64,000 bases of DNA from assembly GCF_000473325.1 (NCBI RefSeq), contig NZ_AXBI01000011.1, positions 6,307 through 70,306 on the forward strand, given 5' to 3'. The notes beneath the pieces were generated by a model. It saw only the letters and a list, made by a program, of their open reading frames with translations, was not told the DNA's origin and did not search any database. This document shows, in pieces, positions 13,888-19,016 of the stretch. Position 1 is the first letter of the stretch; each line of letters begins with the position of its first letter. The DNA comes from Leisingera caerulea DSM 24564. Its GTDB lineage: Bacteria > Pseudomonadota > Alphaproteobacteria > Rhodobacterales > Rhodobacteraceae. The position numbers were made by a program, and so were the translations under genes.

Positions 13888-15621
13888 ATGCAGGATGACC
13901 GCAAGACAGGGCAGGAGGGCCTGAGCGCCGGGGGGATGTTGACCGCGGGCGGCGAGGGCAGCCGGTGGGCCGGAACCGAGAAACTGGTCAGCGGCCTGGA
14001 TGGCGGGCTGAACATCGCGCATGAGGCCGCGGACCGCCACGCCGCCGCGGGCTATGGCGCGCAGACGGCGATCCGCTGGCTGGGCAAGGACGGCAGCCGG
14101 CGCGAGCTGACCTATGCGGAGCTGGCGGCGCTGTCCTCAAAGTTTGCAAACCTGCTGCGCGGCCACGGGCTGCAGCGGGGCGACGGTGTCTGCTCTCTGA
14201 TCGGGCGGGTGCCGGAGCTGTATGCCTGCGCCCTTGGCACGCTGAAGGCAGGGATGGTCTATACGCCGCTGTTTGCGGCCTTCGGGCCGGAACCGGTCCG
14301 GACAAGGCTGGAAATCGGGGCGGCGCGGGTGCTGGTCACCACCGCGGCGCTGTACCTGCGCAAGATTGCGCCGCTGCGGGATCAGCTGCCCGCCCTGAAG
14401 CTGGTGCTGGTCACCGGTGAGGAGGCGCCGGAGGGCTGCGTGGCGCTGGGGCCGGCGCTGGAGCGGGCAGGGGACAAGTTCGAAACGGTGCGCACCGCGG
14501 CCGAGGATCCGGCGCTGGTGCATTTCACCTCTGGCACCACCGGCAAGCCCAAGGGCGTGGTGCATGTGCATGGGGCGGTGGTCTATCACGCCTATTCGGG
14601 GCGCATCGCGCTGGGGCTGGAGCCGGGCGCGGTCTATTGGTGCACCGCCGATCCCGGCTGGGTCACCGGCACCTCCTATGGCATCATCGCGCCGCTGGTG
14701 AACCGGGTGACGATGGTCGTGGACGAGGCCGAGTTCGACCTGGAGCGCTGGTACGGTATCATCGGGCGCGAGCAGGTCGAGATCTGGTATTCGGCCCCCA
14801 CTGCGATCCGCCTGATGATGCGGGCGGGCGCGGACGCGGCGGCGGCGTTCGATTTCTCCTCGCTGACGTTCCTCGCCAGCGTCGGCGAGCCCTTGAACCC
14901 CGAGGCGGTGGAGTGGAGCCGCAAGGTGTTTCCGCACCCCTTCCACGACAACTGGTGGCAGACCGAGACCGGCGGCATCATGATTGCGAACCTGCCCGGC
15001 ATGGAGGTGAAGCCCGGCTCGATGGGCAAGCCGCTGCCGGGCATCATTGCGGCCATCCTGAGAGAGGACGATGGCGGGCTGGCCGAATGCGGGGCAGGGG
15101 AGACCGGCGAGCTGGCGCTGCGCCCGGACTGGCCCTCGGTGATGCGGGGGTATCTGCATGAGGAGGAGCGGTTCAAGAAATGCTTTGCCGATGGCTGGTA
15201 TCTGTCGGGCGATTTGGCCACCCGGGATGCGGACGGCTATTACTGGTTCGTCGGGCGCAAGGATGATCTGATCAAGACCTCCGGCCATCTGGTCGGCCCG
15301 TTTGAGGTGGAAAGCGCGCTGATTGAGCATCCGGGTGTGGCGGAGGCGGCGGTGATCGGCGTGCCGGATGAGACCGCGGGCGAGATCGTGAAGGCCTATG
15401 TCACGCTGAACCCCGGCTATGAGCCGTCTGAAGAGCTGGAGCGCGAGGTGCGCGGCCATGCGCGCAAACGGCTGGGGGCGGCGGTGGCCCCGCGCAGCGT
15501 GCTGTTCCGCAACACCCTGCCCAAGACCCGGTCGGGCAAGATCATGCGCAGGCTGCTGAAGGCGCGCGAGCTGGGGCTGCCGGAGGGCGACATTTCGACA
15601 TTGGAGAGCGATGAGACATGA
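13888..15621 (+). CDS. Acetyl-CoA synthetase-type acyl-CoA ligase (AMP-forming)
   Basis: A 577-residue adenylating enzyme. The ATP signature [11 protein letters not shown] is at residues 214-224, the WWQTETGG block marks the small-acid (acetate/propionate) subgroup, and [30 protein letters not shown] spans the hinge. The C-terminal [10 protein letters not shown] has the catalytic Lys. It resembles AcsA of Bacillus rather than the long Acs. It should activate a short carboxylic acid to acyl-AMP then acyl-CoA, but transfer to the acyl carrier protein encoded three genes downstream is possible. The stop overlaps the E1 start by 4 bases (ATGA), so all four genes of this operon appear translationally coupled or nearly so. 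Confidence 0.87.
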
Positions 15622-17615
15622 GCACCCAGGGGAAAACCCGCCTTGACCGCGGCCATGTGCGCGACCTGCTGACGGCGATGATGCGGGTCCGCATGTTCGA
15701 GGACGCCTGCGCCAAGCTGTACACGCAGGAAAAGATCCGCGGCTTTCTGCATCTTTACGACGGCGAGGAGGCGGTTGCCGCGGGCGTGATCCCGCTGCTG
15801 GCGGAGGGCGACCGGGTTGTCGCCACCTACCGCGAGCATGGGCACGCGCTGGTGCGCGGGGTTTCGATGGATGCGGTGATGGCGGAGATGTTCGGCAAGG
15901 CCGAGGGCTGCTCCGGCGGGCGCGGCGGGTCGATGCATCTGTATGATGCGGGGACCAATTTCTATGGCGGCAACGCGATTGTCGGCGGCGGGCTGCCCTT
16001 GGCGGCGGGGCTGGCGCTGGCCGACCATATGCGCGGCGATCCGCATGTCACCGCCTGTTTCTTTGGCGAGGGGGCGGTGGCCGAAGGCGAGTTTCACGAG
16101 GCGATGAACCTGGCCGCCCTGTGGGGGCTGCCGGTGCTGTTTGTCTGTGAAAACAACGGCTATGCCATGGGCACGGCGCTGGGGCGCAGCGAGTCCGAGA
16201 CCGATATCAGCGCCAAGGCCGCCGCCTATGGGGTGGCGGCCGAGGTGGTGGACGGGATGGATGTGGTGGCGGTTGAGACCGCGGCGCGGCGGGCCTTGGC
16301 AGCGATCCGCGAGACCGGCAAGCCGGTGTTCCTGGAGTGCCGCACCTACCGGTTCCGGGCGCATTCGATGTTCGACGCCCAGCTCTACCGGGACAAGGCG
16401 GAAGTAGAGGACTGGCGCAAGCGCGGCCCGATTGTCCGCTTCCGCACTTGGCTGCTGGAGGCCGGGCTGATCCATGAGGAGGAAATCGCCGCGATTGAGG
16501 CGGAGATCGAAGGGGAGATCGCAGCGGCGGTGCAGTTCGCCGAAGACGCATCGTGGGAGCCGGTGGAAGATCTGACGCGCCACGTCCTGGGGCCGCAGCC
16601 CGGTCCGGTTGCGCCGGCGGCGCCCGGCGGGGAAACCGAAATGGTCAGCTACCGGGAGGCGGTGCGGGCGGCGCTGCGCGATGCGATGACGCGCGACGAA
16701 CGGGTGTTCCTGATGGGCGAGGATGTGGGCGCCTATGGCGGCTGCTATGCGGTGTCGATGGGGCTGATGGAGGAATTCGGCGAGGCCCGCATCCGTGACA
16801 CACCGCTGTCGGAGTCCGGCTTTACCGGCGCCGGGATCGGCGCGGCGATGGCGGGGATGCGCCCGGTGGTGGAGCTGATGACGGTGAACTTCTCGCTGCT
16901 GGCCCTGGATCAGATCCTGAACACCGCCGCCACCGTCCGGCACATGTCCGGCGGCCAGTTCGGGGTGCCGCTGGTGATCCGCATGGCCACGGGCGCGGGC
17001 AAGCAGCTGGCGGCGCAGCACTCGCACAGTCTGGAGGGGTGGTATGCCCATATCCCGGGGCTGAAGGTGCTGGCCCCGGCCACCGTCGAGGATGCGCGGG
17101 GGATGCTGTGGACGGCGCTGTGCGATCCCGATCCGGTGCTGATCTTTGAAAACGTGATGCTTTATAACCGCGAGGCGGCGCTGAGCAGCACCGCGGGGCC
17201 GGTGGATATCTCAAATGCCGCAGTCCGCCGCGAAGGCAGCGATGTCAGCCTGATCACCTATGGCGGGTCGCTGTTCAAGACGCTGGAGGCGGCGGAGGCG
17301 CTGCAGAGCGAGGGCATCTCGGCGGAGGTGATCGACCTGCGCAGCCTGCGGCCGCTGGATGATGCCACGATCCTGGCTTCGGTCGCCAAGACCCGCCGCG
17401 CGGTGATCGTGGACGAAGGCTGGCGCTCCGGCTCGCTGGCGGCGGAGATTTCGGCGCGGATCATGGAGCAGGGGTTCTGGACGCTGGACGCGCCGGCCGG
17501 GCGGGTCTGTTCGGCAGAGGTGCCGATCCCCTATCCCAAGCATCTGGAAGATGCGGCGATCCCGCAGGTGCCGGCCATCGTGGCGGCGGTGCGGGCGATG
17601 ATGGGAGCGGCGTAG
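15618..17615 (+). CDS. Fused E1 alpha-beta 2-oxoacid dehydrogenase subunit
   Basis: A 665-residue fusion of two usually separate chains. Residues 10-325 are E1 alpha, with [11 protein letters not shown] (101-110) and the thiamine diphosphate site [13 protein letters not shown]...ENN (150-180), where the usual GDG reads GEG. A Pro/Ala-rich joint (325-340) leads to E1 beta (341-665), whose [12 protein letters not shown] and [15 protein letters not shown] blocks are typical. The enzyme decarboxylates a 2-oxoacid and reductively acylates the lipoyl group of E2; the closest familiar layout is the acetoin dehydrogenase type. No E3 gene is present here. The substrate (pyruvate, branched-chain acid or acetoin) cannot be read from sequence. 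Confidence 0.87.
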
Positions 17616-18768: not shown

Positions 18769-19016
18769 CCCAGACCGATATGCGTGCCGTTTTCCTGGAA
18801 GAGCTGACACGGGTGGCCCCCGACATCGACCCCGCAGGGGTGTCGGACGCAGATCATCTGCAGGATGATCTGGAGCTGGATTCGATGGATATCCTGAATC
18901 TGGCGGCGGCCCTGCACCAGCGGCTTGGCATCGAAATCCCGGAGGCGGATTATCCCCGGATCGCAACGGTGGGGGCCGCCGCTGCCTATCTTTCTGCCGC
19001 GGCGGCTGCGGATTAG
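18765..19016 (+). CDS. Acyl carrier protein
   Basis: An 83-residue ACP with the phosphopantetheine site LELDSMDILNL (Ser near residue 40) in an acidic four-helix context, and an Ala-rich tail. It starts within the end of the E2 gene (ATGA overlap), so its expression is tied to E1-E2. It is not the fatty-acid-synthesis AcpP, which would be more acidic and next to fab genes. A dedicated ACP beside an acyl-CoA ligase and a lipoyl acyltransferase suggests it receives or stores the acyl group. Confidence 0.85.
   Translation: MTQTDMRAVFLEELTRVAPDIDPAGVSDADHLQDDLELDSMDILNLAAALHQRLGIEIPEADYPRIATVGAAAAYLSAAAAAD

Follow-up and report, generated by a model that had tools for sequence, protein, structure and literature searches.

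The stretch of DNA analysed here (the window) comprises 64,000 bases of Leisingera caerulea DSM 24564, bases 6307-70306 of the 70,306-base contig NZ_AXBI01000011.1. Analysis of its open reading frames (ORFs) reveals four that lie end to end on the + strand and encode an acetate--CoA ligase (CoA, coenzyme A), the E1 and E2 components of a 2-oxoacid dehydrogenase and an acyl carrier protein (ACP), a gene set that we call the cassette (Table 1). The ligase and E1 genes overlap by 4 bases, E1 and E2 are 1 base apart, and E2 and ACP overlap by 4 bases; the coordinates and spacings given in an earlier note on this DNA are thus correct. The ligase is taken here from the ATG at 13888, while the RefSeq start in a sister strain lies 48 nt further in. 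In all four genes codon position 2 is poor in G and C and positions 1 and 3 are rich in them, and the ratio of non-synonymous to synonymous substitution rates (dN/dS) is 0.05-0.26 relative to three other Leisingera lineages. The window's E1 is 97.4-99.4% identical to the E1 of five Leisingera caerulea plasmids. The same note had remarked that the operon has no E3 (lipoamide dehydrogenase), and this holds for the whole contig: the four lipoamide dehydrogenases of the genome that score above cut-off are all on other contigs. E3 is supplied in trans. Besides the cassette E2, the genome has three others.

The four proteins

The ligase scores 824.5 bits against the AcsA-type equivalog NF003313 (cut-off 729), and its top match in the PDB is acetyl-coenzyme A synthetase 9g79. 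Its WWQTETG and GWVTG segments align with those of acetyl-CoA synthetase 2p2f, and we take these residues to form the acetate pocket. E1 exceeds the cut-offs of TIGR03182 (433.1 bits against 393.85) and NF006667 (412.6 against 321), and its top PDB matches are the alpha and beta subunits of human-type pyruvate dehydrogenase (PDH) E1. By its sequence, E1 is of the pyruvate type, with alpha and beta in a single chain. An acetoin or branched-chain dehydrogenase is ruled out by the score with the PDH alpha model and by the first rank of PDH in the PDB. The fusion of the two E1 subunits, also considered as the key feature of the system, was rejected as such because 19 of 26 cassette loci (L091-L100, L102-L117) show E1 as a pair of separate matches. 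The earlier note had spoken of acyl groups from a 2-oxoacid or an acid; given a pyruvate-type E1 and an acetate-type ligase, this can be narrowed to acetyl.

E2 scores over the cut-offs of PF00364, PF02817 and PF00198, so that a single lipoyl domain, an E3-binding and a catalytic domain are all there, and the lipoyl lysine is kept. It falls short of the acetyltransferase equivalog TIGR01349 (193.8 bits against 445) and of the other E2 models listed. With PF00198, three known cassette E2s score 176.5-197.8 bits, most other full-length matches 226-302 and three further places 161-214. The difference from canonical E2s is found at the C-terminus. Cassette E2s end 24 residues past the active-site DHR in 99 of 104 cases; canonical alphaproteobacterial E2s (a sample of 32 loci, with L135 and L154 left out for a wrong-strand frame) have tails of 26-28 residues in 30/30 resolved cases, with the hydrophobic C-terminal knob present. 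This C-terminal helix is described as the knob that joins E2 trimers, and CoA as reaching the active site from inside the hollow core, in PMC8421416. The last residue of our E2 model, 383, aligns with residue 628 of Escherichia coli E2p (7b9k, a chain of 630 residues); the AlphaFold model itself (mean predicted local distance difference test score 69.8, predicted template modelling score 0.49) served only to confirm the E2 fold. By their sequence, cassette E2s lack the knob that builds 24- or 60-mers, and a trimeric core is predicted from this.

At the catalytic position, 120 E2s listed of 6977 found have Gly in the 11 nearest (the named ones are Leisingera, some are metagenomic), Asn in one and Asp in the rest. 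Of the 104 cassette tails, 7 have Gly, namely those of the window, of L004 (its copy) and of another five Leisingera records, and one has His. A family-wide loss of the catalytic Asp is rejected, since Gly is confined to the 11 nearest E2s among those 120. This Gly, shared by the E2 of the window and the 10 E2s nearest to it, coexists with purifying selection on the genes.

The ACP scores 36.2 bits with PF00550 (cut-off 20.8), and its phosphopantetheine Ser (DS) is kept in all 105 cassette ACP entries; 328 relatives at E<=1e-6 were found among 388 candidates. It stays below every NCBIfam ACP cut-off listed, reaching at best 42.5 bits against 71, as do the five of five other cassette ACPs scanned, while the genome's own ACP of the fatty acid synthesis (FAS) type scores 151.1 bits against a cut-off of 92. 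Another small ACP encoded in the genome likewise stays under the NCBIfam cut-offs. Judged by these scores, the cassette ACP is distinct from the fatty-acid ACP.

Conservation of the four-gene unit

Linkage was examined from both ends of the cassette. From the ACP side, a profile scan of a species-genome collection turned up 229 relatives, and the best 80 of these were analysed. Ligase, E1, E2 and ACP are present in this order at 66 of the 80 loci. In another 11 the contig ends within 5.2 kb upstream, and what remains is consistent with the unit except at L014, where a truncated E2 lies behind an unrelated gene; the three exceptions are weighed below. From the E1 side, 385 alphaproteobacterial genomes were searched for E1, or half of E1, at no less than 60% identity. 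Apart from the window's genome, 15 places were found; two of them stop at a contig end and 13 have ligase, E2 and ACP, so that all testable close relatives of E1 (13/13) keep the other three genes. Of the 29 places with a distant E1 (40-46%), the 5 examined (41-46%) show neither ligase nor ACP, with the ligase side of L120 lying beyond the contig end. These counts from the two sides rule out a chance neighbourhood and bear out the proposal that the four genes act together as one unit.

Among plasmids, 30 records carry an E1 of at least 60% identity, and ligase, E2 and ACP accompany it in 11/11 examined: Leisingera (2), Sulfitobacter, Sinorhizobium, Azospirillum, Cupriavidus, Burkholderia, Paraburkholderia, Photobacterium, Rhodococcus and Streptomyces. 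The cassette thus reaches Beta- and Gammaproteobacteria and Actinomycetes, and the search for the operon across genomes that had been proposed finds it far outside Leisingera. A plasmid record of Paracoccus versutus, one of 27 below 60%, has an E1 of 46% identity without ligase and ACP. Pairwise protein distances of ligase, E2 and ACP over 83 loci correlate with r 0.86-0.90 (ligase-ACP, 0.887), and the maximum in 500 permutations was 0.27-0.34. The unit is uncommon. Counting the window's own genome, 15 of the 385 alphaproteobacterial genomes have an E1 of at least 60% identity. In a set of 398 genomes from the phylum the number is 7, four of which also belong to the former set; this is a count of E1 matches, with an E-value limit that may miss split E1s. 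The 105 cassette entries include the window twice (as itself and as L004), one locus twice (L053 and L103) and a near-identical strain (L098). Because of these few duplicates and the phylogenetic relatedness of the loci, the cassette counts are not independent events.

Crp/Fnr-type sites and the surrounding island

The 300 nt upstream of the ligase were searched for TTGAY-N4-RTCAA with at most 1 mismatch. Such a Crp/Fnr-type palindrome is present in 68 of 90 loci (L053 and L103, the same locus, both counting as hits) and is exact in 21. Positions and spacers vary between loci, with 55 of the 68 sites lying 58-134 nt before the ligase start, as inferred from the window's ligase. In the upstream regions of other genes in the same loci the site occurs in 98 of 680, a control that is probably raised because some of these neighbours share the promoter or the regulation. 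The frequency was 1.7% in first-order shuffles, and six further palindromes with a comparable composition had 0-4 hits in 90. With a shorter version of the test the numbers were 71 of 91 loci against 6.5% of random pieces.

The window (1-64000) holds 13 Crp/Fnr-type palindromes against 2.2 expected, and 11 of them are at least partly intergenic by an approximate gene map in which intergenic DNA makes up ~8% of the window. It also holds 5 of the genome's 18 matches to universal stress proteins (Usp) in 1.3% of the genome's bases, a phosphoenolpyruvate (PEP) synthase, and, at 38852-40745 on the - strand, UbiV (347.9 bits, cut-off 275) and UbiU (509.8, cut-off 440) of oxygen-independent ubiquinone synthesis. 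Genes for UbiD, a flavoprotein that we read as UbiX-like, a short-chain dehydrogenase and a thiolase follow UbiU/UbiV. From this content the plasmid of this marine bacterium looks like a low-oxygen regulon, and the operon is probably induced at low oxygen. The earlier suggestion of a role under low oxygen gains support from the sites at the 68 loci and from the Usps, UbiU/UbiV and PEP synthase of the island.

Table 1. Features of the cassette and its surroundings, in window coordinates
Feature	Position	Strand	Basis or remark
Degenerate Crp/Fnr-type palindrome TTGATGCGGGTTAT	13829..13842		59 nt before ligase ATG; 2 mismatches to TTGAYNNNNRTCAA
Acetate--CoA ligase (AcsA type, AMP-forming)	13888..15621	+	NF003313; PDB match 9g79; 2p2f alignment
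Pyruvate-type E1, alpha ~1-331 and beta 342-665, single chain	15618..17615	+	TIGR03182, NF006667; PDB PDH E1
E2 acyltransferase: lipoyl (ETQKGAI), E3-binding and catalytic domain without C-terminal knob; DHRVSGG	17617..18768	+	PF00364, PF02817, PF00198; tail analysis; structure match
Dedicated acyl carrier protein, phosphopantetheine Ser in LELDSMD	18765..19016	+	PF00550
Crp/Fnr-type palindrome before phasin-like gene	19085..19098		1 mismatch
Phasin-like protein, next gene; accessory, outside conserved cassette	19164..19610	+	Phasin_2 E 0.00046, 20.8 bits, below cut-off 24.9
Candidate Crp/Fnr-family regulator of the island	22829..23581	-	PF13545, PF00027 over cut-off

Neighbouring genes

The nearest ORF of at least 100 residues within 3 kb was taken on each side of the 77 loci L014-L090, with ORFs called by a simple codon-composition rule; this gave 64 upstream and 70 downstream neighbours, which fall into 90 and 105 Pfam families, respectively, with the top 25 by frequency listed. 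Among these listed families no constant fifth gene was found and the nearest neighbours are mixed. Upstream there are P-type cation ATPases (7-8/64), PEP synthase or pyruvate phosphate dikinase (5/64) and Lon-like proteins (2/64), and downstream P-type cation ATPases (4/70), FtsH (3-4/70) and Usp (3/70). Phasin-like, polyhydroxyalkanoate (PHA) synthase, FabI and Pta-AckA-type genes lie near some loci but are not constant: one protein cluster, whose single scanned member is a PHA synthase (PhaC_N), occurs in 6 of the 80 loci, and FabI and Pta-AckA-type genes are close to the cassette in Sulfitobacter SK012. PfkB-type kinases are encoded in some cassette islands.

A LonB-like ATPase-protease (PF13654, far under the LonB equivalog cut-off) is encoded at 2725-5160 of the window and also beside the cassette in L030, L069, L086 and L108. 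A class II glutamine amidotransferase and a PreATP-grasp protein (window 23732-26063) are likewise paired beside the cassette in Sulfitobacter and one relative (L096, L104). In Cupriavidus sp. USMAHM13 (L091, 396-4974) two more AMP-binding genes stand directly ahead of the cassette, and at L082 (2830-8763) a PEP synthase-like gene occupies the ligase's usual place before E1-E2-ACP.

Proposed mechanism and alternatives

We propose, with a probability of about one half, that the four genes together load acetyl groups under oxygen shortage, with the cognate ACP as acceptor alongside or instead of CoA. The cassette is a real and conserved acetyl module, probably one for low oxygen. The interpretation in the earlier note is supported in part, its reserve or signal role being conjectural. 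Acetyl loading of the ACP is our leading hypothesis, with about one chance in two, and loading by E2 is its best-supported form because the ACP is nearly always beside E2, E2 is without the core knob, and the ACP is distinct from the fatty-acid ACP. In such a scheme, E1 would decarboxylate pyruvate and place the acetyl group on the lipoyl arm of E2. As a trimer, which is to be expected of an E2 without the knob, E2 would leave the acceptor side of its active-site channel open to protein, and the phosphopantetheine arm of the cognate ACP could then accept the acetyl group, besides or in place of CoA. Re-oxidation of the lipoyl arm would fall to a shared E3, encoded elsewhere in the genome and docked on the binding domain of E2. 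The ligase would make acetyl from acetate and ATP, either on CoA or directly on the ACP.

Several observations weigh against this proposal. The catalytic Asp is Gly in the E2 of the window (DHRVSGG, 18685-18705) and of its 10 nearest relatives, and the window's own Crp/Fnr-type site (13829-13842) is degenerate, with 2 mismatches; because of these two changes, the window's copy of the cassette may be an altered one. The corresponding place has 2 mismatches in L. aquaemixtae CECT 8399 (L011) as well; L. aquaemixtae DP2N28-1 (L012) and L. methylohalidivorans (L097) each have a single mismatch there. The three exceptions among the 80 ACP loci break the unit in different ways: the ACP is found with an E1 remnant and no ligase at L043, with an E2 remnant only at L046, and in an E1-E2-ACP set without ligase at L082. 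None of the 25 most frequent nearest-neighbour Pfam families listed is a candidate user of acetyl-ACP, and no E2-ACP fusion occurs among the 120 E2s listed. CoA may remain the sole acceptor of the cassette E2.

One alternative is a compact pyruvate dehydrogenase isozyme for stress, with acetyl-CoA as its sole product and its ACP being an assembly or regulatory subunit, or the octanoyl source for lipoylation of E2, as octanoyl-ACP is for LipB. We regard this as unlikely. In its favour, E1, E2 and the ligase each belong to an acetyl-CoA-forming family, E2 retains the E3-binding domain and the lipoyl lysine, and the PDB matches of the ACP include ACPs of complex I and of mitochondria, which have assembly roles. 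An assembly role leaves the ligase unexplained, however, and for lipoylation the genome's normal FAS-type ACP could serve; the 25 most frequent neighbour families listed (nearest ORF on each side) include neither a lipoate ligase nor an octanoyl transferase. It is also conceivable, but improbable, that the ligase rather than E2 loads the ACP, as an acetate:ACP ligase resembling citrate lyase ligase, while E1 and E2 make acetyl-CoA in parallel. Ligases that acetylate a carrier protein exist, and this one is part of the 66 complete loci and co-varies closely with the ACP, but it scores as an ordinary acetate--CoA ligase, the ACP gene follows and, in the window, overlaps that of E2, and the ACP persists at L082 where the ligase is missing.

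A sugar phosphate as the C2 donor of E1, on the model of NapB/NapD and with glycolyl-ACP instead of acetyl-ACP as the product, is very improbable in our view. The PfkB-type kinases of some islands would suit it, as would the precedent for a two-component transketolase-like enzyme that passes a C2 unit to a separate small ACP (PMC7570522). Against it, E1 exceeds the pyruvate dehydrogenase cut-off and aligns best with human PDH E1, the adjoining acetate ligase points to acetyl, and neither KASIII nor a non-ribosomal peptide synthetase family is among the frequent neighbours listed. Slightly less probable still is an ACP that feeds fatty acid or polyhydroxybutyrate synthesis during stress and has only its regulation in common with the other three genes. 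The phasin-like gene adjoining the cassette, the PHA synthase cluster and the FabI and Pta-AckA-type genes of Sulfitobacter SK012 favour such a role, but they are inconstant whereas the E2-ACP pairing is constant, the two genes of that pair overlap by four bases, and the ACP is under every FAS-ACP cut-off.

Relation to known systems

The cassette resembles the pyruvate dehydrogenase complex with an alpha2beta2 type of E1 in having E1 alpha and beta, a pyruvate-type E1 and a lipoyl-E2 with an E3-binding domain. It differs from it in having its own ACP and acetate ligase, no E3 of its own and an E2 without the core-building knob. PDB entry 4ofs is presumably the truncated trimeric E2 core of T. 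acidophilum. In its shortened C-terminus and predicted trimeric form the cassette E2 is like this core, which is a trimer according to the title of 4ofs, but it is natural whereas the T. acidophilum core is engineered. The ligase, for its part, is like AcsA acetate--CoA ligase by its NF003313 score and unlike it in that its gene overlaps, and is linked to, E1-E2-ACP.

NapB and NapD are E1/E2-like, and their transfer takes place via a lipoyl step. The pathways of naphthyridinomycin (NapB/NapD to NapC) and dnacin (DinU/DinS to DinT) share with the cassette a separate small ACP next to a C2-transferring enzyme; there a two-component transketolase-like enzyme lands the C2 unit on the ACP, according to PMC7570522, which cites Peng et al. 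2012. They offer a precedent for the passage of a C2 unit from a thiamin diphosphate (ThDP) enzyme to an ACP of this kind. Unlike the cassette, these systems use a sugar-phosphate donor and belong to secondary-metabolite clusters, and the passages of PMC7570522 on them name no ligase or stress island. In stress-gene make-up, the cassette island resembles the DosR/OsdR hypoxia-dormancy regulons of Streptomyces and mycobacteria, since in the OsdR regulon of Streptomyces a low-oxygen regulator is accompanied by universal stress proteins, a zinc alcohol dehydrogenase and pyruvate phosphate dikinase (PMC5069765). It differs in the Crp/Fnr-type sites at the cassette, and no word beginning with 'acyl' occurs in the main text of PMC5069765. 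Our searches in an open-licence library brought up no title or abstract that describes the cassette. New here are the upstream Crp/Fnr-type palindrome, the E2 without C-terminal knob and the ACP other than the fatty-acid ACP.

In its textbook form, pyruvate dehydrogenase has CoA as acceptor and a giant hollow E2 core. We tentatively suggest, at somewhat less than even odds, that the cassette is a second, previously undescribed form, patchily distributed in Proteobacteria and Actinomycetes, in which a small complex with trimeric E2, a private ACP acceptor and a low-oxygen switch of Crp/Fnr type would direct pyruvate and acetate carbon into an ACP pool apart from CoA. If true, this would account for a gene set of stress islands in several phyla that now bears the piecemeal annotation acsA-pdhA-E2-ACP, and would offer a natural test of why pyruvate dehydrogenase complexes are so large. 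Acetyl handover to a private ACP would then give a textbook enzyme a new branch, by which oxygen-limited or dormant cells would channel acetyl units to a protein-bound pool.

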